Shown here in pieces: positions 6,464 through 47,756 of a stretch of 64,000 bases of DNA. Both the position numbers and the translations under genes were made by a program. The stretch is taken from the NCBI GenBank assembly GCA_016786665.1, contig JAEUVZ010000050.1:1-64000 (forward strand). Direction: 5' to 3'. The notes beneath the pieces are model-generated. The model searched no databases and had not been told where the DNA came from. It was given only the letters and a program-made list of their open reading frames with translations. The DNA is from Flavipsychrobacter sp. (GTDB lineage Bacteria; Bacteroidota; Bacteroidia; Chitinophagales; Chitinophagaceae). Positions within the stretch are counted from its first letter, which is position 1, and each line of letters begins with the position of its first letter.

Positions 6464-7083
6464 TTGCGAGAGGCCATTTGGTGTCCGTTGTCACTGCGAG
6501 GAAGCACGACGAAGCAGTCTAACCAGCTTCATTCAAACAAAACACAAGCAAATACCCCAACCGTCCTTGCGAGCGCAGCAACCTCCCCCCACGTTCTTGC
6601 CCAGCTGCTCAGCCACCACACACATACGCACACCACCAGGAAAGCCCCCTTCAGGGGGTTGGGGGCCGACCCCACACCAATCACCCCACACCCCAACCGT
6701 TGTCACTGCGAGGAAGCACGACGAAGCAGTCTAACCAGCTTCACTCAAACAAAACACAAGCACACCCCAACCGTCCTTGCGAGCACAGCGAAGCAACCTC
6801 ACCCCACGTTCTTGCCAACCAGCCCAGCCACCACACACATACACAAACCTGGAAAGGCCCCCTTCAGGGGGTTGGGGGCCGACCCTACACCCCACACCCC
6901 AACCGTTGTCACTGCGAGGAGGCACGACGAAGCAGTCTAACCAGCTTCAGGGAAATAAAACACAAGGAATACCCAACCGTCCTTGCGAGCACAGCGAAGC
7001 AACCTCACCCCACGTTCTTGCCCAGCTACCCAGCCACCACATACACAAACCTGGAAAAGCCCCTTTAGGGGGTTGGGGGCCGC
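6464..7083. repeat. Composite direct-repeat array, three modules of about 210 bp
   Basis: The 725 bases between dprA and rimO hold three tandem modules, starting near 6486, 6699 and 6905 (spacing 213 and 206), preceded by a partial element at 6464. Each module has three parts in the same order: element A (GTTGTCACTGCGAGGAAGC... ending GAAGCAGTCTAACC), element B (CCGTCCTTGCGAGC... ending GAAGCAACCTCACC, then CACGTTCTTGCC) and element C (a C5/G5 hairpin, CCCCCTTCAGGGGG, followed by TTGGGGGCC). A and B are variants of one family with the pattern TGCGAG-n-CGAAGCA. A solitary copy lies at 8503-8545. Open frames across the array are low-complexity artefacts. No transposase is present. Confidence 0.88.
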
Positions 7084-7173: not shown

Positions 7174-8481
7174 TCACACTACCTCTCCCTCCAGGTCATA
7201 ATCATACGCCTTCGTTATCCGCACATTCACAAAATCACCTATCGGTAATTCTTCCTCGCTGGTGATGATTACCTCGTTATCCACCTCCACGCTGTCAAAC
7301 TCGGTGCGGGCAAGGTAACGCCCTGCTTCCAGTTTATCTACTATCACTTTGTATTCTTGTCCTATGCGCTCCTGGTTCTTCTCATAAGAGATTTCCTGCT
7401 GCACTTCCATTATCTCCTGTGCCCGTGCCTCCTTCTCTTCCGAGGTCAGCGTATCAGCAAGGTCATACGCGCTGGTGTTCTCCTCGTGCGAATAAGTGAA
7501 GATGCCCACACGGTCCAGCCTCACCTCTTCCAGGAACTGCTTCAGTTGCTCCACATCATCCCTCGTCTCACCCGGGAAGCCCGCTATCAGCGTACTGCGT
7601 ATCGCAATGCCCGGCACCTTATCCCTGATGGCAGCAACAAGGTCATATATTTCCTGTGTCTCCATCTGGCGCTTCATCGCTTTCAGCATGTTGCCCGATA
7701 TGTGCTGTAACGGCATATCCAAGTAGTTGCAGATATTATCCCGCTCGCGCATCACATCCAGTATATCCAGCGGAAACTTGCTGGGGTAGGCATAGTGCAG
7801 GCGTATCCAGTGCAGCCCCGGCACATCAGAAAGGTGCTTCAGCAGTTCGCTTAGTGCACGCTTCTTGTAGATATCCAGTCCGTAGTAGGTAAGTTCTTGC
7901 GCTATCAGCATTACTTCCTTCACCCCCATGCTCACCAGCTTCTTCGCTTCGGCCACTACTTCTTCTATCGTCTTGGAAACATGCCCGCCGCGCATCAGTG
8001 GTATCGCGCAGAAAGAGCACGTGCGGTTGCAGCCCTCCGATATCTTCAGGTAAGCATAGTGCTTCGGTGTAGCCAGCATGCGTTCACCTATCAGTTCCGC
8101 CTTATAGTCTGCGTTGAATTGTTTCAGTATCAGCGGCAGCTCCATCGTCCCGAACCAGGCATCCACTTCAGGTATCTCCTTCATCAGGTCGTGGCGGTAG
8201 CGCTCGCTCAGGCAGCCGGTAATATACACCTTATCCAGTTTGCCGTCACGCTTCAGCTCCACCTGCTCCAGTATGGTATTCACGCTTTCTTCCTTGGCCT
8301 TGTCTATAAAGCCGCAGGTATTTACCACCACTATGTTGTGGTCCAGCTTTTCGCTCTCATGCTTCACCTTTATGCCATTGGCACTCAGTTGGCCGCTCAG
8401 CACTTCACTATCCACCATGTTCTTGGAGCAACCAAGAGTGATGATATTCACCTTATCCTTCTTAAGCGTTCTGGTCTTCAA
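7174..8481 (-). CDS. rimO: Ribosomal protein S12 methylthiotransferase RimO
   Basis: A 435-residue radical-SAM enzyme that methylthiolates an Asp of ribosomal protein S12. The N-terminal MTTase domain has its three cluster Cys (C18 in LGCSKN, C56 in NTCGF, C90 in TGCLSE). The radical SAM triad is C151, C155 and C158 in EGCNRTCSFC. A TRAM-like domain forms the C-terminus from about residue 370. The start is TTG at 8481: there is an in-frame stop just upstream, no ATG nearby, and the resulting N-terminus (MKTRTLKKDKVNIITLG) looks like that of related RimO proteins. Single gene with its own terminator. Confidence 0.95.
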   Translation of the reverse strand: MKTRTLKKDKVNIITLGCSKNMVDSEVLSGQLSANGIKVKHESEKLDHNIVVVNTCGFIDKAKEESVNTILEQVELKRDGKLDKVYITGCLSERYRHDLMKEIPEVDAWFGTMELPLILKQFNADYKAELIGERMLATPKHYAYLKISEGCNRTCSFCAIPLMRGGHVSKTIEEVVAEAKKLVSMGVKEVMLIAQELTYYGLDIYKKRALSELLKHLSDVPGLHWIRLHYAYPSKFPLDILDVMRERDNICNYLDMPLQHISGNMLKAMKRQMETQEIYDLVAAIRDKVPGIAIRSTLIAGFPGETRDDVEQLKQFLEEVRLDRVGIFTYSHEENTSAYDLADTLTSEEKEARAQEIMEVQQEISYEKNQERIGQEYKVIVDKLEAGRYLARTEFDSVEVDNEVIITSEEELPIGDFVNVRITKAYDYDLEGEVV

Positions 8482-8502
8482 TATTCTTTATTTTATTTAT
8501 CA

Positions 8503-8545
8503 CGTCATTGCGAGGAACGAAGCAACCTCACGTAGTGCTCTTGCA
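8503..8545. repeat. Solitary copy of the TGCGAG-type repeat
   Basis: CGTCATTGCGAGGAACGAAG followed by CAACCTCACGTAGTGCTCTTGC, in the rimO-der gap. It matches element B of the array at 6464-7083, including the trailing CTTGC, but with a shorter centre. TTGC and GCAA can pair around GAGGAACGAA. Confidence 0.75.
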
Positions 8546-8588
8546 CTCACTTCAATGGACACACTGTCGTATTACCGAATTGTCAAAC

Positions 8589-9911
8589 CTACCCATTCTT
8601 CCTGAAGAACAACCTTATCGGCACCCCGCTAAAATTATAGTGTGCCCGTATTTTATTTTCCAGGAAGTTCTTGTAAGGTTCCTTCACCGCGTCAGGGAAG
8701 TTGGTATAGAATGCAAAGCTCGGCACCACCGTTGGTATCTGCATCATGTACTTTATCTTGATGGCATGGCCGCGCGTCATTGGCGCATTATACTTCTCTA
8801 TCTCTTTACCTATCTTCTCATTCAGTTCCGATGTCATGATGCGGCGCTTGCGGTTCTCATACACCTCTATCGCTTTTTCCATCGCCTGGAAGATACGCTG
8901 CTTCTCCGTAGCCGATATAAACAACACCGGCACGTCGGTGAATGGCGCTATCTTTTGCTTCAGTTCCTTTTCGTAGTCACGGGCGGTATTGGTTTCTTTC
9001 GATACGGTGTCCCATTTGTTCACCAGTACCACCACGCCCTTGCCTTTCCGCGTCGCCAGGCTGAAGATGTTCACATCCTGTGCCGTAATGCCCTTTTCGG
9101 CATCTATCAGCATCAGGCATACATCGGCCTCGTCCATAGCGCGTATGGCCCGTATTACCGAGTAGAACTCCAGGTCTTCGTTCACGCTCTTTTTCTTCCG
9201 CAGGCCCGCCGTGTCTATCAGTATAAATTCGCGGTTGAATAGTTTGTAGTGGGTATGTATGGTATCGCGCGTAGTACCCGCTATGTCCGATACTATCATG
9301 CGCTCTTCACCTATCAGCGCGTTCAGCAGGGTACTCTTGCCCGCATTGGGTTGGCCTATTATGGCAAATTTAGGCACTGCCTCTTCGCTGTCCCCTTCAT
9401 CATCGCCGTCTACCTCCGCAATGTGCGTGGTTACCTCGTCCAGCAGTTCCCCTGTTCCGCTTCCGGAAATGGACGAGATGAAAAACACCGGGTCAAGCCC
9501 CAGCGAGTAGAACTCAGTAGCCTCCAGCGCGCGGGTGGGGTTGTCCACCTTGTTCACCACCAGCAGTACCGGCTTGGTACTGCGGCGCAGCACGTCGGCC
9601 ATATCCTCGTCCTGGTCGGTAATGCCCGTGGCGCAGTCCACTACAAACAGTATCAGGTTGGCCTCATTCACGGCTATCTCCACCTGCTTCTTTATCTCCC
9701 GTTCAAATACATCTTCCGAGCGCGACACAAACCCGCCCGTATCTATTACGTTAAACGTCTTCCCGTTCCAGTCGGCAATGCCATACTGTCGGTCGCGGGT
9801 CACGCCCGCCACATCATCCACTATAGCCTTTCGCTGCTCCAGCAACCTGTTAAACAAGGTCGACTTTCCTACATTTGGCCTTCCCACGATGGCAACGGTA
9901 AATCCCGGCAT
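8589..9911 (-). CDS. der: Ribosome biogenesis GTPase Der (EngA)
   Basis: A 440-residue double GTPase needed for assembly of the 50S ribosomal subunit. Two G domains are visible: P-loop 1 GRPNVGKST (residues 10-18) with DTGG and NKVD, and P-loop 2 GQPNAGKST (186-194) with DTAG and NKWD. A KH-like domain forms the last 85 residues. The acidic linker between the G domains (DGDDEGDSEE, about 168-177) is typical. ATG start. A -7 promoter element lies 20 bases upstream. All motifs are intact. Confidence 0.97.
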   Translation of the reverse strand: MPGFTVAIVGRPNVGKSTLFNRLLEQRKAIVDDVAGVTRDRQYGIADWNGKTFNVIDTGGFVSRSEDVFEREIKKQVEIAVNEANLILFVVDCATGITDQDEDMADVLRRSTKPVLLVVNKVDNPTRALEATEFYSLGLDPVFFISSISGSGTGELLDEVTTHIAEVDGDDEGDSEEAVPKFAIIGQPNAGKSTLLNALIGEERMIVSDIAGTTRDTIHTHYKLFNREFILIDTAGLRKKKSVNEDLEFYSVIRAIRAMDEADVCLMLIDAEKGITAQDVNIFSLATRKGKGVVVLVNKWDTVSKETNTARDYEKELKQKIAPFTDVPVLFISATEKQRIFQAMEKAIEVYENRKRRIMTSELNEKIGKEIEKYNAPMTRGHAIKIKYMMQIPTVVPSFAFYTNFPDAVKEPYKNFLENKIRAHYNFSGVPIRLFFRKNG

Positions 9912-9931
9912 TAAAATTCAATTTTAGCGTG

Positions 9932-9939
9932 CAAAGGTA
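9932..9939 (-). promoter_or_regulatory. -7 promoter element (TACCTTTG) for der
   Basis: Matches TAnnTTTG on the minus strand, 20 bases upstream of the der ATG. No clear -33 element was seen. Confidence 0.5.
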
Positions 9940-10036
9940 CGCTTTTATATGCGGTTTTTGCCTATTTTATTGTGGTTTTTGTGTATTTGTTGTAGAGGGA
10001 GCAAGCCTACACAAATAGGAGCCCTCCTACCATAAT

Positions 10037-10609
10037 CATTCCTCCCTTGCGCCCCAGCGAAGGGGGTTAGGGGGATGTCCCTCACCGAATGAGCAAACAA
10101 TCCAAGCCATTCCCCCTTGCGCCCCAGCGAAGGGGGGTAGGGGGATGTCCCCACACCGAATGAGCAAGCAATCCAAGTCATTCCCCCTTGCGCCGAGCCT
10201 TGCGCGCCAGCGAAGGGGGTTAGGGGGATGTCCCACACCGAATGAGCAAGCAATCCAAGTCATTCCCCCTTGCGCCGAGCCTTGCGCGCCAGCGAAGGGG
10301 GTTAGGGGGATGTCCCACAGCGAATGAGCAAACAACCCAACACACTCCCCACGAGTAAAAAGCATAATCATTCCCCCTTGCGCCGAGCCTTGCGCGCCAG
10401 CGAAGGGGGTTAGGGGGATGTCCCACAGCGAATGAGCAAACACCCCAAGCCATTCCCCCTTGCGCCGAGCCTTGCGCGCCAGCGAAGGGGGTTAGGGGGA
10501 TGTCCCCACAGCGAATGAGCAATCACCCCAAGCCATTCCCCCTTGCGCCGAGCCTTGCGCGCCAGCGAAGGGGGTTAGGGGGATGTCCCACAGCGAATGA
10601 GCAAACACG
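10037..10609. repeat. Array of seven direct repeats with C5/G5 hairpins
   Basis: Seven copies start with CATTCC at 10037, 10108, 10179, 10261, 10369, 10451 and 10534. Each reads CATTCCCCCTTGCGCC, an optional 12-base insert (GAGCCTTGCGCG), then CCAGCGAAGGGGG, TTAGGGGGATGTCC and a spacer with CGAATGAGCAAAC. Copies 1 and 2 lack the insert; copies 3 to 7 have it. CCCCCTT can pair with AAGGGGG, or alternatively the C-run can pair with the second G-run. Unit lengths of 71, 82, 83 and 108 are not multiples of three, so the open frames across the array are not one repeat protein. The array ends where the DUF559 stop codon begins. Confidence 0.9.
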
Positions 10610-10990
10610 CTATCCCTTCTCCCCCCAAAGCTCCGCCACCTTCATCACCAATGCACTTACAACACCCTCCATATTTACCTTCACATCACGATCACAAAAG
10701 CGAATAAACTCCAAGCCACAATCCTCCAGTATTTCCTGGCGGCCCCTGTCATGCGCCTGCGCCTCCTCGCTATCATGACTACTTCCGTCAATCTCTATAG
10801 CAAGCCTCAATTCATGACAATAGAAATCAACAATATAAGCACCCACAGGAACCTGCCGGTGAAACTCGACACCCAATGCCCTCCTGCGGAGTCGCTTCCA
10901 CAGCAAGGCCTCGCTCAATGTACTTTCCTTCCGCAACTTGCGGGCAAGCTGTTTTAAGTGCTTTTGGTAGGGAACTATCTTATTCGCCAT
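10610..10990 (-). CDS. DUF559 domain protein (Vsr-like endonuclease fold)
   Basis: A 126-residue DUF559 protein. The family is thought to share the PD-(D/E)XK nuclease fold with very-short-patch repair endonucleases. Visible are the N-terminal basic helix (ARKLRKESTLSEALLW), the conserved RRRALGVEFHRQVPVG segment, and a likely active-site pair: Asp in IVDFYC and Glu/Asp in LAIEIDGSSH. ATG start at 10990. The stop codon at 10610 abuts the last unit of the repeat array, and a single inverted copy of the same repeat lies just upstream of the gene (11045-11108), so the gene is bracketed by inverted copies. Biochemical role unknown; a link to the repeats is inference. Confidence 0.85.
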   Translation of the reverse strand: MANKIVPYQKHLKQLARKLRKESTLSEALLWKRLRRRALGVEFHRQVPVGAYIVDFYCHELRLAIEIDGSSHDSEEAQAHDRGRQEILEDCGLEFIRFCDRDVKVNMEGVVSALVMKVAELWGEKG

Positions 10991-11044
10991 GCACTATGAA
11001 GATAAATCATAACATAGGCAGACTCGTAGATTTGTGGATAACAT

Positions 11045-11108
11045 GCTTCGGGTGGACATCCCCCTAACCCCCTTCGCCCGCTCACTAAGGCCTGCGCACA
11101 AAGGGGGA
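11045..11108. repeat. Inverted single copy of the 10037-10609 repeat
   Basis: On the minus strand it reads TTCCCCCTTTG, a diverged centre, then GCGAAGGGGG and TTAGGGGGATGTCC. It therefore belongs to the same family as the seven-copy array but points the other way, on the far side of the DUF559 gene. The bases from 11109 to 11265 hold no gene that I can support. Confidence 0.75.
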
Positions 11109-11265
11109 ATTATCGGTAAGATGCAAACGAACCCGGCAACACACAAACGCCCCCATCCCCGAACCATCATCTCGACCGAAGCGAAAGGCGACAGCCGGAG
11201 CGCAGAGAGAGCCGCCGGGATGCAGCGCCGCAGACAATAGAAGAACCCCAAAGCCTGTCAGGCAG

Positions 11266-11463
11266 CTACCTCGCCCTCATGGCCCGGATAAGTTTTTTAT
11301 TCCTTCTATCCGCTCGGCCATTTTGAAGTGATATCACTGCCCAGGCAGCCGCAGGAATCCAGCCTATGAGCGTAATTTGTAAAATCAGGCAGAGAATGCC
11401 CCGAAACAGTTTCCCTCTCAGTAAGAACGAAAGCCAGGGCAGGAAAATCGCGATAAGAGTCAT
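11266..11463 (-). CDS. YqaE/Pmp3-like small membrane protein
   Basis: A 65-residue membrane protein with two predicted helices (about residues 2-20 and 24-45) and a basic C-terminal tail. The phrase LFRGILCLILQITLIGWIP followed by AAAWAVISL resembles the YqaE/Pmp3 family, whose members have two helices joined by a short loop and are often stress-induced. The usual first helix with conserved Pro is only partly matched (FLPWLSFLL). ATG start. It is isolated between the repeat region and the AT-rich islet. Confidence 0.65.
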   Translation of the reverse strand: MTLIAIFLPWLSFLLRGKLFRGILCLILQITLIGWIPAAAWAVISLQNGRADRRNKKLIRAMRAR

Positions 11464-11795
11464 TGTGTTTGGATTTTTTGAGCGTTGCGTGCTTTGTAAA
11501 TATACGAATTAGAGTCGCCGATCCGGAGATCGGCAGCCGGTGCGACGTAGGTAAACTCTACGCCGAGCGGGGAACATCTGTGGCACTAGGTGTGGGTTGA
11601 AAAATGGCACAAGCACGCCGTGCTCAAAGCCGTGCTGCATGCATGCGCCAACAAGGATATAGGCAGCCGGTGCGCCGTAACACCTAAACAACTTAAATAG
11701 TAATCTAATCTAGTCGATAAATTAGCTAACTTGGTATATAAAATAGATAATGCAGTGTTTAGATTAAAATCGCTGCATGGTATATAACAATATTT
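11464..11795. other. Non-coding left flank of the AT-rich islet: hairpin and direct repeats
   Basis: No gene is supported in these 332 bases. They contain a perfect hairpin at 11517-11534 (GCCGATC, loop CGGA, GATCGGC) and an 18-base direct repeat, GGCAGCCGGTGCG(A/C)CGTA, at 11532-11549 and 11662-11679 with one mismatch. The last 100 bases are very AT-rich and probably hold the promoter of the next gene. Confidence 0.6.
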
Positions 11796-13370
11796 ATGAA
11801 TTTCAACGTTGATATTTGGGGAGATATTGTAAAGGGGATTATTGGAATTGTAATTGCAGTTTTTTTGCCCAAAAGAGTTTTCCTCTGCATAAGAGAATTA
11901 TTGCGTTACTTTTTTTATGCTACCGTTCGGCAGTGGAGAATTGCTGTTGTTGCCGTGTTCGGTGGGGTCGGTTTCTATTACTGGTTTCCTTATGAATTGA
12001 TAACACGCGTCTACGTTACAGGTATTTTTTGTACAACATTGGCGATTTGTTTCCTTGTTGAGTTAAGAAGGTTTTATATAAACTTGGCGGGCGAAGGTGC
12101 TCTTATAATCTATGGATGCTTTTCTAGCCGAGATAACGATTACCTAGTTGTCGATATAGACGCAGAGAGCATTAATGACATATTACAAAAGCAGTGCGAA
12201 AATCTTTCCTTGTCGAATAGCGCTTTCCGTGCGAAGCTTCCAGCACTAAAGTTTGTAGTGCTACCCCAATTCCTCCCCTTGTTGTTCGGTTACCGTGGTA
12301 CAAAGAAGTTTATTTCAAAGTTTATTTTAAGCAATAAACACATTAGTTCCCTTTACTTTGTTCGAAATATTAGCGATCAAAAACTGACTACCCTTCTAGC
12401 TTTTAGGCAGGAAAACTTCGCAAATCCTGAGTTGATGCGAGAAATACAGAATTTGCTGAATTCAATATCGAAAGACAACAAATTTGGTGTAAATGGCGTT
12501 GCAGAGATCAGTCTTAAATTATATGCACTTGTATTCAGCCAGATTTTTCTAGATGTATTGCTTGTTAACAAGCAGTACGGAAACGTCCAAACGATGTTAG
12601 ACGAATCTAGTAGACTTTTAGCTGATGTTAAAGATTTATTTAGTGTGAATCAGGCCGAAACTCCAGGTGCCATTCAGTTTTTCAATATTTGGAAATCGTA
12701 CATTGAGAGATATAGAGCGATACTATTGTTAGATCAAGGTGAGTTTCGTGGCGCGGTAAACTACATTATAAGTTCAATTAGCTTGAATCCATATTATCCA
12801 TATTTTAACTATGATAGTTTTAGAGATAACTATATTAGAAGGTATGGAATAGAGTTGTCGTACTCAATTCAAGAAGCAGCTGATGAACTTAAGGAGCCAA
12901 AAGATGTAGACTTTGATACTGCTAGAGACGACATCAGTAAGAATATTGTTTCTAAAGATGCCGAATTTAGCTACAAGATATTACTTGAGATAATTCACAG
13001 GGACGAAAAGAAACTTACTCATCGTCAGGTTGAGACTGAACTAATAAGAATTTCTCATGCTGATTCAGCAACAAAGTTAGCCGCTGCAGAAGTATTAAAG
13101 CACTTACCAGATGGGTCCGAAAAAGTTAATGAGATTTACCTGGGACGAATTGATAAAGCTGTTGAATTCCTTGAAAGTATTGTAAATCAAGACAAGGGAT
13201 TTTCGTTAATGCATGCAAAAATTGGCGCTCTTCTCTTGATGAAGGCACTTCAAAATGGAAGTGATGAAGACATGCTTGTAGCTGCTGAGAGATGGACACT
13301 CGGCATGCACTTCCTCACCGAACTCGGATTAAATAGTAAGTCGGCTACTTCAACGCCGGGCAATATATAA
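11796..13370 (+). CDS. Unrecognised membrane-anchored protein of an AT-rich islet
   Basis: A 524-residue protein that I do not recognise. The N-terminus has about three hydrophobic segments (roughly residues 11-33, 46-64 and 68-89). The remaining 430 residues are soluble, helix-rich and probably cytoplasmic. Stretches such as ALVFSQIFLDVLLVNKQYG and YRAILLLDQGEFRGAVNYI resemble TPR-like helical hairpins, but no regular repeat is clear. Codon use is distinctly AT-rich (many TTA, ATA and AGA codons) compared with neighbours, which suggests acquisition by transfer. It stands alone, with hairpin-bearing non-coding DNA on both sides. No catalytic motif was seen. A signalling or defence role would be speculation. 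Confidence 0.8.
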   Translation: MNFNVDIWGDIVKGIIGIVIAVFLPKRVFLCIRELLRYFFYATVRQWRIAVVAVFGGVGFYYWFPYELITRVYVTGIFCTTLAICFLVELRRFYINLAGEGALIIYGCFSSRDNDYLVVDIDAESINDILQKQCENLSLSNSAFRAKLPALKFVVLPQFLPLLFGYRGTKKFISKFILSNKHISSLYFVRNISDQKLTTLLAFRQENFANPELMREIQNLLNSISKDNKFGVNGVAEISLKLYALVFSQIFLDVLLVNKQYGNVQTMLDESSRLLADVKDLFSVNQAETPGAIQFFNIWKSYIERYRAILLLDQGEFRGAVNYIISSISLNPYYPYFNYDSFRDNYIRRYGIELSYSIQEAADELKEPKDVDFDTARDDISKNIVSKDAEFSYKILLEIIHRDEKKLTHRQVETELIRISHADSATKLAAAEVLKHLPDGSEKVNEIYLGRIDKAVEFLESIVNQDKGFSLMHAKIGALLLMKALQNGSDEDMLVAAERWTLGMHFLTELGLNSKSATSTPGNI

Positions 13371-13760
13371 GTATGTATTGAATGCTTGTCCGACATTAAA
13401 TAATTCAGGACGTTAATCTTAATTCCGCTGATATCTGTTCGATTAATTCAGCCCCGCTACCGCAAGTCTGCGACTTGTGGTAACAAATAACGGCAGTTTG
13501 CAACTGCCTTACTGATCAAGCTTCTTCGTCCCGCTTACCACCCACAAAATACAAACCCCACCTCACCCCCACAACCGCCAAACGACGGTACCCCGCAAAA
13601 AATCCCTGCCCGCATGTGCATATCATTTCTTGCTCCATAAAATCAATCTTAGTAAATTTGTATTGCAAGTATAAAATAAACAAAATCAACTATTTGCAAA
13701 CACACAAAAAAATACCCCGCCATCGGGCGGGGTAGTATCAGGAGTTTTTTAAGTCAGGGG
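13371..13760. other. Non-coding right flank of the islet with twin hairpins
   Basis: No gene is supported. At 13458-13482 an 11-bp stem (TACCGCAAGTC / GACTTGTGGTA, one wobble) encloses the loop TGC. At 13492-13508 a 7-bp stem (GGCAGTT / AACTGCC) encloses the same TGC loop. Nine bases separate the two. This paired-hairpin layout resembles REP/BIME-type elements. The rest is AT-rich, apart from the pdhB terminator at 13706-13734. Confidence 0.65.
13706..13734 (-). terminator. Rho-independent terminator after pdhB
   Basis: A perfect 9-bp stem TACCCCGCC / GGCGGGGTA around a 4-base loop, followed on the minus strand by seven T. It lies 27 bases past the pdhB stop. Confidence 0.9.
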
Positions 13761-14744
13761 TTACTTTACCATGTACATTACTTCCTTCACCAGCTTTACG
13801 GTGCGGGCCACGTCGGGGAGGTGGAGCGCTACCAGGTTGGGGGCGTAGTGCATGTTGGCATCAGCGGAGCAGATACGGCGGATAGGAGCATCCAGGTAGT
13901 CGAACGCTTCTTTTTGTACGCGGTAGCTGATCTCTGAAGAGATGCTGGCGAAGGGCCATTGCTCTTCTACTATCACCAGGCGGTTGGTTTTCTTTACCGA
14001 CTCCACTATCGTCTGCCAGTCCAGCGGACGGATGGTACGCAGGTCTATCACCTCGGCGCTGATACCTTCTTTGTGCAGTTCTTCCGCAGCGCCAAAGGCC
14101 ACCTTCATCATTTTGTTATACGATACGATGGTGACATCAGTGCCCTCGCGTTTTACATCCGCCTTACCTATGGGGATGAGGTATTCTTCTTCGGGTACAT
14201 CGCCCAGGTCGCCGTAGGCTACCTCGCTTTCCATAAATACCACCGGGTCCTCGTCGCGTATCGCCGATTTCATCAGCCCCTTAGCATCGTAGGGGTCTAT
14301 GGTAGAGATTACTTTCAGGCCCGGAACGTTGGCGTACCAGTTCTCAAAAGCCTGCGAGTGCTGCGCGCCCAGCTGCCCGGCAGAGCCGTTCGGCCCGCGG
14401 AATACGATGGGGCAGGTAAACTGGCCACCGCTCATGGAGAGCGTTTTGGCCGCGTGGTTCACTATCTGGTCCAGCGCCAGCTGCGCAAAGTTCCAGGTCA
14501 TGAACTCCACTATGGGGCGGGTATTGTTGGTAGCCGCACCTACGCCTATGGCGGCGAAGCCCAGCTCCGAGATGGGGGTATCTATCACCCGCTTCGGCCC
14601 GAATTCGTCCAGCATGCCCTGGCTTACCTTGTAGGCGCCGTTGTAGAGCGCTACTTCTTCTCCCATCAGGAATACGCGCTCATCGCGGCGCATTTCCTCT
14701 TCCATTGCTTCCCTGAGTGCCTGTCGTAATGGTATAGAACGCAT
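13761..14744 (-). CDS. pdhB: Pyruvate dehydrogenase E1 component, beta subunit
   Basis: A 327-residue E1-beta subunit of a 2-oxoacid dehydrogenase, most like pyruvate dehydrogenase. The E1 alpha2beta2 heterotetramer decarboxylates pyruvate with thiamine diphosphate. Motifs: GEEVALYNGAYKVSQG, DTPISELGFAAIGVG, a Gly-rich RGPNGSAGQLGAQHSQ segment and LRTIRPLD. ATG codons exist at 14756 and 14744; the second is preferred because related proteins begin close to MRxIxFRxAL. The alpha subunit is not adjacent. A near-consensus -7 element (TATCTTTA) lies at 14787-14794. A separate fused E1 gene is at 37499. Confidence 0.93.
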   Translation of the reverse strand: MRSIPLRQALREAMEEEMRRDERVFLMGEEVALYNGAYKVSQGMLDEFGPKRVIDTPISELGFAAIGVGAATNNTRPIVEFMTWNFAQLALDQIVNHAAKTLSMSGGQFTCPIVFRGPNGSAGQLGAQHSQAFENWYANVPGLKVISTIDPYDAKGLMKSAIRDEDPVVFMESEVAYGDLGDVPEEEYLIPIGKADVKREGTDVTIVSYNKMMKVAFGAAEELHKEGISAEVIDLRTIRPLDWQTIVESVKKTNRLVIVEEQWPFASISSEISYRVQKEAFDYLDAPIRRICSADANMHYAPNLVALHLPDVARTVKLVKEVMYMVK

Positions 14745-47644: not shown

Positions 47645-47724
47645 GTAGATAGTAGATAGTAGGTAGTAGGTAGTAGATAGTAGATAGTAGATAGTAGGTG
47701 ATAGTTAATAGTAGGTGATAGTTA
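47645..47724. repeat. Heptanucleotide tandem repeat between pyrR and pyrB
   Basis: Eight heptamers, GTAGATA or GTAGGTA (order A A G G A A A, then GTAGGTG), run from 47645 to 47700. They are followed by a degenerate part in which GTAGGTGATAGTTA is repeated partly. The array is AT-rich and without hairpin or coding potential. It lies 3 bases after the pyrR stop and about 33 bases before the pyrB ATG. Confidence 0.85.
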
Positions 47725-47756
47725 AAAATAGAGTAGCATAAAAGAAAAAATAGTAC

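Follow-up and report, generated by a model that had tools for sequence, protein, structure and literature searches.

A candidate palindrome-bounded mobile element carrying a DUF559 nuclease gene

Hairpins or inverted repeats form the ends of a number of insertion sequences, including those of the IS200/IS605 type and others. The described systems nearest to the locus reported here are the REPtrons (TnpA-REP/RAYT) and the Rickettsia palindromic elements (RPEs). RPEs are approximately 150 bp long and carry a peptide ORF, and the available portion of the source names no nuclease for them (PMC10969869). A DUF559 gene has already been placed in the EDxHD family, in the intein section of PMC9403480, and a Caulobacter DUF559 protein has been described as Vsr-like and as acting with a cytosine methyltransferase (PMC12907096); both of these sources were accessible in part only. 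Searches of open-licence papers, some available only as excerpts, for DUF559 together with repeats, nuclease or in-frame insertion found no element of the kind described below, which is no proof of absence. Broader searches, also restricted to open-licence papers, found none among the matches listed.

We analysed a 64,000-nucleotide stretch of DNA from a Flavipsychrobacter genome, hereafter the window. In our view, the window probably contains a single copy of an autonomous mobile element that is bounded by palindromes and carries a DUF559 nuclease gene. The initial annotation had reported seven direct repeats on one side of a DUF559 gene and a single inverted copy upstream of it, and we confirmed this layout (Table 1). 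The gene between the repeats is indeed DUF559, matching Pfam PF04480 with an E-value of 6e-31; the only Pfam matches of the protein were DUF559, MTES_1575 and DUF2726. The copies on the 3′ side are 46–58 nt each and are spaced 71, 82, 82, 108, 83 and 82 nt from start to start, and the one copy on the 5′ side has the inverted orientation. The latter is present as annotated, but its limits are better drawn as in Table 1 than at 11045–11108. Similarly, the array is adjacent to the DUF559 stop codon but, contrary to what had been stated, does not touch it: its last base is 10608 and the stop codon, on the minus strand, occupies 10610–10612, so that one base lies in between.

Table 1. Positions in the window of the DUF559 gene, the surrounding repeat copies and the neighbouring der gene.
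Feature	Position	Strand	Basis
DUF559 gene, 126 aa, candidate nuclease of the element	10610..10990	-	ORF + PF04480 + model
Repeat copy 1, short loop form	10036..10082	+	
Repeat copy 2, short loop form	10107..10152	+	
Repeat copy 3, stem CCCCCTT..AAGGGGG + tag TTAGGGGGATGTCC	10178..10235	+	
Repeat copy 4	10260..10317	+	
Repeat copy 5	10368..10425	+	
Repeat copy 6	10450..10507	+	
Repeat copy 7; repeated spacer beyond extends to 10608	10533..10590	+	
Inverted single copy upstream of the DUF559 gene	11053..11111	-	
der (EngA) GTPase gene, left neighbour, context only, outside the element	8589..9911	-	

Every copy in the window comprises the stem and the tag listed for copy 3, the stem being shorter or imperfect in copy 1 and the tag of copy 2 carrying one substitution. 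Mean identity per column over the eight copies was 86%. The inverted copy is 80% complementary over 45 nt to five of the seven array copies and 100% complementary over 24 nt to copy 1, and its tag, like those of the array, points to the DUF559 gene. A 22-nt core, GAAGGGGGTTAGGGGGATGTCC, occurred eight times in the window at up to three mismatches and not at all in 100 shuffles. Folded as single-stranded DNA, the eight whole copies were only modestly better than shuffles (z −1.3 to −2.4). A search of window positions 8000–14000 against Rfam gave two matches, both under their cut-offs.

The DUF559 protein is a relative of I-Bth0305I, an EDxHD homing endonuclease; its relationship to Vsr is weaker. 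A profile of 12 relatives matched 3HRL (E 3e-29) and 3R3P, the catalytic domain of I-Bth0305I (E 6e-6). The model of the window protein (pLDDT 90.5) matched the same two structures (E 2e-6 and 3e-4, respectively), as well as PvuRts1I (E 7e-3); its match to Vsr had an E-value of 0.15 and a probability of 0.96. The protein contains E27, D55, E66, D68, H72 and D81. The first five of these are all kept in the 94 standalone copies and in 58 of 60 in-frame copies described below, although membership of the set required a profile match, so that the selection of copies favoured conservation. The fold and residues are those of an EDxHD/Vsr-like enzyme; the invariant E, D, H and D were assigned to EDxHD by eye.

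Repeats are concentrated beside DUF559 genes in other genomes as well. A DUF559 match was found in 54 of 119 genomes, and the relatives examined comprised 60 regions, namely nearly all short-frame matches at E <1e-19 (G053:C18 and G115:C129 were omitted) and 15 long-frame matches. At 49 standalone DUF559 genes, including both genes of the window's own genome, the density of self-repeated 16-mers within 0–250 bp was 0.135 upstream and 0.162 downstream. The enrichment near DUF559 genes that the initial annotation had proposed as a check was thus found: 13–16% at this distance versus 0.1–0.5% at 1–3 kb; the highest far bin was 0.020. The corresponding densities in the first 250 bp of the 15 long-frame loci were 0.037 and 0.021. 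A self-repeat lay within 500 bp of 27 of the 49 standalone genes, and at the other 22 the measure detected none; it counts only repeats inside one locus, and a pair of units in genome G067, described below, is invisible to it. In addition, at least 32 repeat bases were present in 29 of 80 gaps adjacent to DUF559 versus 26 of 232 other gaps at the same loci (p 2e-6). This effect was present for gaps of 100–300 and 300–600 bp and absent for those of 600–1200 bp (7 of 16 adjacent versus 5 of 10 other).

We also considered a wider set of named genomes, the best 80 of at least 582 relatives found with one FRRQH-type pattern; DUF559 was therefore unevenly sampled. These 80 were mostly from Bacteroidota, with further labels of Chloroflexi, Anaerolineae, Nitrospirae, Myxococcales, Alphaproteobacteria, Balneolaceae, a cyanobacterium, Turneriella and Stagnimonas. 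According to the 16-mer measure, self-repeats occurred within 500 bp of 38 of the 53 standalone genes among the 80 and not near the remaining 15. Densities were 0.244 and 0.224 at 0–250 bp versus 0.016–0.046 at 1–3 kb.

The two flanks of a DUF559 gene tend to match each other. An inverted match with a score of at least 14 linked the 5′ and 3′ flanks in 50 of 94 loci (the score was below 14 in 44), as compared with 0 of 72 far segments and 11 of 282 comparisons with flanks of other loci; a direct match of at least 14 was found in 44 of the 94. Within one genome, inverted matches at this score were found for 15 of 26 own pairs versus 9 of 80 pairs from different genes. Since own flanks match better than those of different genes, each DUF559 gene tends to have its own repeat. 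The test used 94 of 102 standalone loci, those with short flanks or long predicted genes being excluded. Truncated genes (L114–L117) were dropped here and from the gap comparison, and copies with a stop codon (L092, L109) were retained in the flank counts. The named and relatives sets overlap in at least three loci (L206 = L073, L230 = L050 and L263 = L131), the first of which was counted twice. Overall, these data support the REP/RAYT-like geometry proposed in the initial annotation, which recurs around DUF559 genes of other genomes. By eye, the tags face the gene in the window and in locus L088 and face outward in L083 and in many in-frame inserts; as their orientation varies, no single fixed pair of element ends fits all cases.

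Sixty of the 154 distinct DUF559 domains were classed as lying inside longer open frames, a placement that the initial annotation had not noticed. The host was recognised by Pfam and NCBIfam profiles in all eight proteins scanned. More specifically, the host profile surrounds DUF559 in LeuS, AroC, IleS, an Lhr-like helicase, HutU and MetH, and follows an N-terminal DUF559 in TrpA and HemD. A ninth host is the type I enzyme HsdR; two of these HsdR loci, L132 in G102 and L045 in G055, also contain an in-frame GIY-YIG domain (by Pfam and by eye, respectively), and several repeat-only stretches are in frame in L132, as judged by eye. Further hosts identified by eye, without a profile, include MetG, adenine deaminase, ArgB, CinA, a mutase fusion and type IIG enzymes, among others. 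In one of the 60 cases (L234), the frame consists largely of repeats and no host was recognised. We set aside assembly chimerism: in-frame copies occur in named isolates, such as those of Mucilaginibacter, Algoriphagus and Leeuwenhoekiella, and several genera share the sites in LeuS, AroC and MetH. Simple terminators were set aside as well, as they leave the in-frame copies unexplained.

On either side of many inserts the repeat encodes peptides, such as LTPNPSPKERG and APSPLERGQGGEV, and several inserts have terminal inverted repeats, CCTCACCCCTAACCCCTCTCC-AAA-GGAGAGGGG, mirrored at the opposite end. An inverted match of at least 12 between the flanks was found in 33 of the 58 in-frame inserts used, out of 60, versus 1 of 52 outward-shifted controls; no inverted repeat of 12 was found in the other 25. 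Matching dinucleotides were seen by eye outside the tags of several inserts, from which we claim no target rule. In 7 of 20 loci picked from places with the terminal-inverted-repeat (TIR) pattern, the repeat was part of an open frame longer than 340 codons. Solo repeats of some 12–15 codons are also in frame, for example in MetH and AlaS. The AlphaFold model of LeuS with its insert was uninformative (pLDDT 40.7), and the LeuS inserts of G003 and G004 differ with a dN of 0.14, dS not being computable. A SAM riboswitch lies ahead of a MetH gene carrying a DUF559 insert (L245, 2468–2589). Separately, the Der match is broken by a gap of ∼150 bp in G059 (C112:43507-44973) and of ∼200 bp in G021 (C17:75530-77026), in each case within one open frame (500 and 528 codons, respectively), which suggests an in-frame insert in Der itself.

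Occupancy of these sites is patchy. Among 118 genomes with a match, 14 have DUF559 in the LeuS loop between NWIGKSxGAE and TTRPDTIFG; some of the other matches are partial, and ten uninserted loops were compared. The search returned 25 of 26 LeuS loci, L182 falling outside the search expression. DUF559 occupies two LeuS sites in G017. In G094 (L178, site 1), the loop carries in frame a PBECR3 nuclease-like domain (Pfam E 2e-18), and a second nuclease family is thus found at a DUF559 site. We observed one MetH site in three states: empty in G052, with the repeat only in G060 and with a full DUF559 unit in G046. At an AlaS site, the window's own genome has no insert, and G047 and G011 have nothing but the repeat.

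The comparison of related genomes was possible at the genus level only, not at the strain level. DNA upstream of der that is common to ten relatives stops at window positions 9913–9965, around or just upstream of the der start. Beyond this boundary lie the element in the window, a DUF559 element in the other orientation in G053, and repeats only in G001. By eye, no such array was seen in the 330 bp examined of G002, G004, G009, G024, G030, G037 or G065, and G003 had one possible C/G-rich stem there. When an empty site was sought for L083, an element of G001, the four genus mates aligned with its right flank alone, starting at query position 2950–2975.

Two near-identical units were observed in G067, where a 484-bp unit is present in two copies that are 97.7% identical. 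The alignment ends at the end of the 3′ repeat (CCCCTTCAGGGGCGGGGGG), and the units precede two unrelated genes, a DUF58 gene and that of homoserine kinase. An ATG overlapping the DUF559 stop codon reads in frame through the repeat into either downstream gene, and the homoserine kinase profile starts at residue 22, after a 20-residue leader coded by the repeat. The other five matches in this genome all fall within its final 80 bases, which comprise the 3′ repeat and, in two of the matches, the last codons; here the bases are counted along the unit. On the left the boundary is fuzzier, with the alignment beginning ∼73 bp ahead of the start codon used; beyond that point the two copies carry separate but related repeats.

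Our data give good support to movement of the unit. That DUF559 is the mover is inferred; neither cleavage nor movement was observed directly. The repeats resemble the two ends of a mobile element and the relatives in other bacteria are often in frame within housekeeping genes, which makes the nuclease the best candidate for spreading them. The element would consist of inverted palindromic repeats, each a stem with a short G/C-rich tag, around a gene for a Vsr/EDxHD-like endonuclease. Such a unit would enter new places and leave or spread solo repeats, its placement being intergenic here and, in sister lineages, in frame within genes or at a gene start. By the most likely route, the nuclease would cut or nick its cognate repeat, as hairpin or duplex, and repair from another copy would bring the repeat, or the whole repeat–gene–repeat unit, into the break. 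Cognate bracketing, co-occurrence of repeats and DUF559, insertion in frame, the three states of a single site and the pair of near-identical units are shown by the data; we infer that DUF559 drives copying by cutting its cognate repeats and that the translated insert remains in the protein.

Alternatively, DUF559 may be a passenger that is carried along through its chance position between two repeats, while host repair, template switching or a different enzyme does the copying of repeats and units. We regard this as unlikely, although it retains some support. Most copies of the window repeat are solo: an 18-nt core matched 39 times at up to two mismatches in the whole genome (3.51 Mb; the reversed pattern gave 0 matches), and 8 of these copies bracket the window gene while 31 lie away from it, singly or in arrays, such as four clusters on contig 15 seen by eye between ordinary genes. 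Further, G043 lacks a DUF559 match but contains six TIR-type copies. Other nuclease domains also occupy the same kinds of site, namely PBECR3 in LeuS of G094 and GIY-YIG in HsdR. On the other hand, the same nuclease family accompanies such sites in several phyla, and its five putative catalytic residues are kept in 152 of 154 copies, subject to the selection noted above. Genomes with DUF559 are also richer in hairpins. The hairpin CCCCTCC..GGAGGGG had a mean of 6.5 and a median of 2 in the 45 genomes with DUF559 at E <1e-18 as compared with 0.53 and 0 in 74 others, and at least three copies were present in 21 of the 45 versus 5 of the 74 (Mann-Whitney p 1.6e-8 for the hairpin, without correction for kinship; one genome, G001, has 85 copies). 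Of the 22 genomes with the TIR-type pattern of in-frame inserts, 17 belong to these 45. In G043, two inverted TIR-type pairs span 244 and 272 bp end to end (C1:1566670-1566913 and 1129875-1130146; L275 and L276) and may be non-autonomous or decayed units.

The window-type core itself was found in 9 of the 119 genomes. The survey counted 36 copies in its own genome; 10, 4, 5 and 6 in four genus mates; 34 in G110; and 1, 1 and 2 in three others. The initial annotation would have been refuted by an abundance of the window repeat without DUF559. This was not seen: in G002, the one genus mate that lacks DUF559, 4 copies were counted, all of them with one mismatch, versus 36 here. In G001 and G100, the core lies on both sides of a DUF559 gene from the window's branch of the DUF559 tree, one of the two copies in G001 being inside the 3′ end of the gene. 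The tree is short and poorly starred (107 columns, 154 rows, 17 of 151 inner branches starred), and statements about lineages are therefore weak.

The repeats could also be REPs spread by a Y1 (HUH) RAYT transposase, with DUF559 merely among them. The geometry is like that of REPtrons, as given in the accessible part of PMC8266576, and Y1_Tnp is present in 86 of the 119 relatives. Nevertheless, the genome of the window has no match to PF01797 (Y1/RAYT transposase) despite its 39 repeat copies, and we set RAYT aside as the mover in this genome; the assembly is 98.7% complete but in 76 contigs, so that a gene may have been missed. The repeat consensus also lacks a GTAG tetranucleotide, and, as described above, matches are better between the two flanks of a given DUF559 gene than between flanks belonging to different genes. 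We accordingly consider this explanation improbable. The only further DUF559 gene found in the genome, on contig 65, is also bracketed, by a different repeat with stem CCTCCTAAAAACAGGAGG; a copy in the opposite orientation extends to the DUF559 stop codon. Other repeats were noted in passing. A different repeat of 206 nt forms a tandem array of 2.9 copies at window positions 6485–7083, and by eye its pieces surround the DUF559-type repeat on contigs 34, 66, 11 and 68. A heptamer tandem repeat, GTAGATA, occupies 47645–47725 (7.6 copies, with a degenerate continuation).

A third possibility is that DUF559 is a housekeeping or defence nuclease, acting in very short patch repair or in restriction of modified DNA, and that the repeats are incidental. 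Its fold is related to that of PvuRts1I and, weakly, Vsr; PADLOC gave a weak match to a methyl-directed restriction enzyme (E 1.6e-6); and the Caulobacter protein acts with a cytosine methyltransferase, according to the portion of PMC12907096 at hand. Such a function would not explain the bracketing by cognate inverted repeats, the insertion in LeuS, AroC or MetH, or the two near-identical units in one genome, and we find it very improbable as an account of the locus. Finally, that the in-frame cases are inteins or introns with a DUF559 endonuclease, removed from protein or RNA, is hardly tenable and was set aside: same-site occupancy is patchy as in inteins, and the available part of PMC9403480 mentions a DUF559 gene, assigned to EDxHD, in its section on inteins, but a Pfam scan (E 1e-6) detected no intein domain in eight host proteins, ten in-frame loci had no group I or II intron at Rfam gathering thresholds, only the SAM riboswitch, and the in-frame solo repeats are too short for self-splicing.

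If DUF559 does spread the palindromes, a family of unknown function in several phyla would gain, through its tie to repeats, a testable role. So would the G/C-rich palindromes that recur in the genomes examined, and RPE-like in-frame palindromes would gain a candidate enzyme. The extra domains in LeuS, AroC, MetH and other enzymes, which would otherwise pass for odd fusions, would be explained, and the element would provide a naturally occurring means of inserting sequence in frame into housekeeping genes.

Among known systems, IS200/IS605-type insertion sequences share with the element a single ORF with hairpin repeats at both ends, and a ∼0.5 kb unit occurs twice in one genome. They differ in that the window protein has no known transposase domain among its Pfam matches and that in-frame DUF559 inserts are tolerated in housekeeping genes. 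I-Bth0305I has a related fold (3R3P) and likewise occupies fixed sites patchily. By contrast, no intron or intein was found in the DUF559 loci scanned, the DUF559 element is bounded by palindromes and occupies many different genes, and the DUF559 protein, at 126 aa, lacks the long DNA-binding region of I-Bth0305I described in the accessible part of PMC3943268.

REPtrons and RPEs remain the nearest known kinds. Like REPtrons, the DUF559 loci have palindromic repeats in both orientations with one small nuclease gene between them, a cognate repeat for each gene and dispersed solo copies, and the expected bracketing was observed. The enzyme and the tag of REPtrons were looked for and not matched: the nuclease is DUF559, with a Vsr/EDxHD-like fold, rather than an HUH Y1 enzyme, PF01797 being absent as noted, and the window consensus carries TTAGGGGGATGTCC where GTAG would be expected beside the stem. 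Moreover, sister DUF559 elements enter coding genes in frame. In this they resemble RPEs, short palindromes found in frame in unrelated metabolic genes, so far as the excerpted text of PMC10969869 shows; this feature is met by relatives of the element and not by the window copy. DUF559 elements differ from RPEs in carrying a conserved nuclease gene between the repeats. On balance, we lean slightly towards a new class of element, neither transposon, intron nor intein, in which a Vsr/EDxHD-like nuclease gene flanked by palindromic repeats would copy itself into its own solo repeats and, in frame, into coding genes, and would survive within essential proteins through translation of insert and repeats as a tolerated loop.
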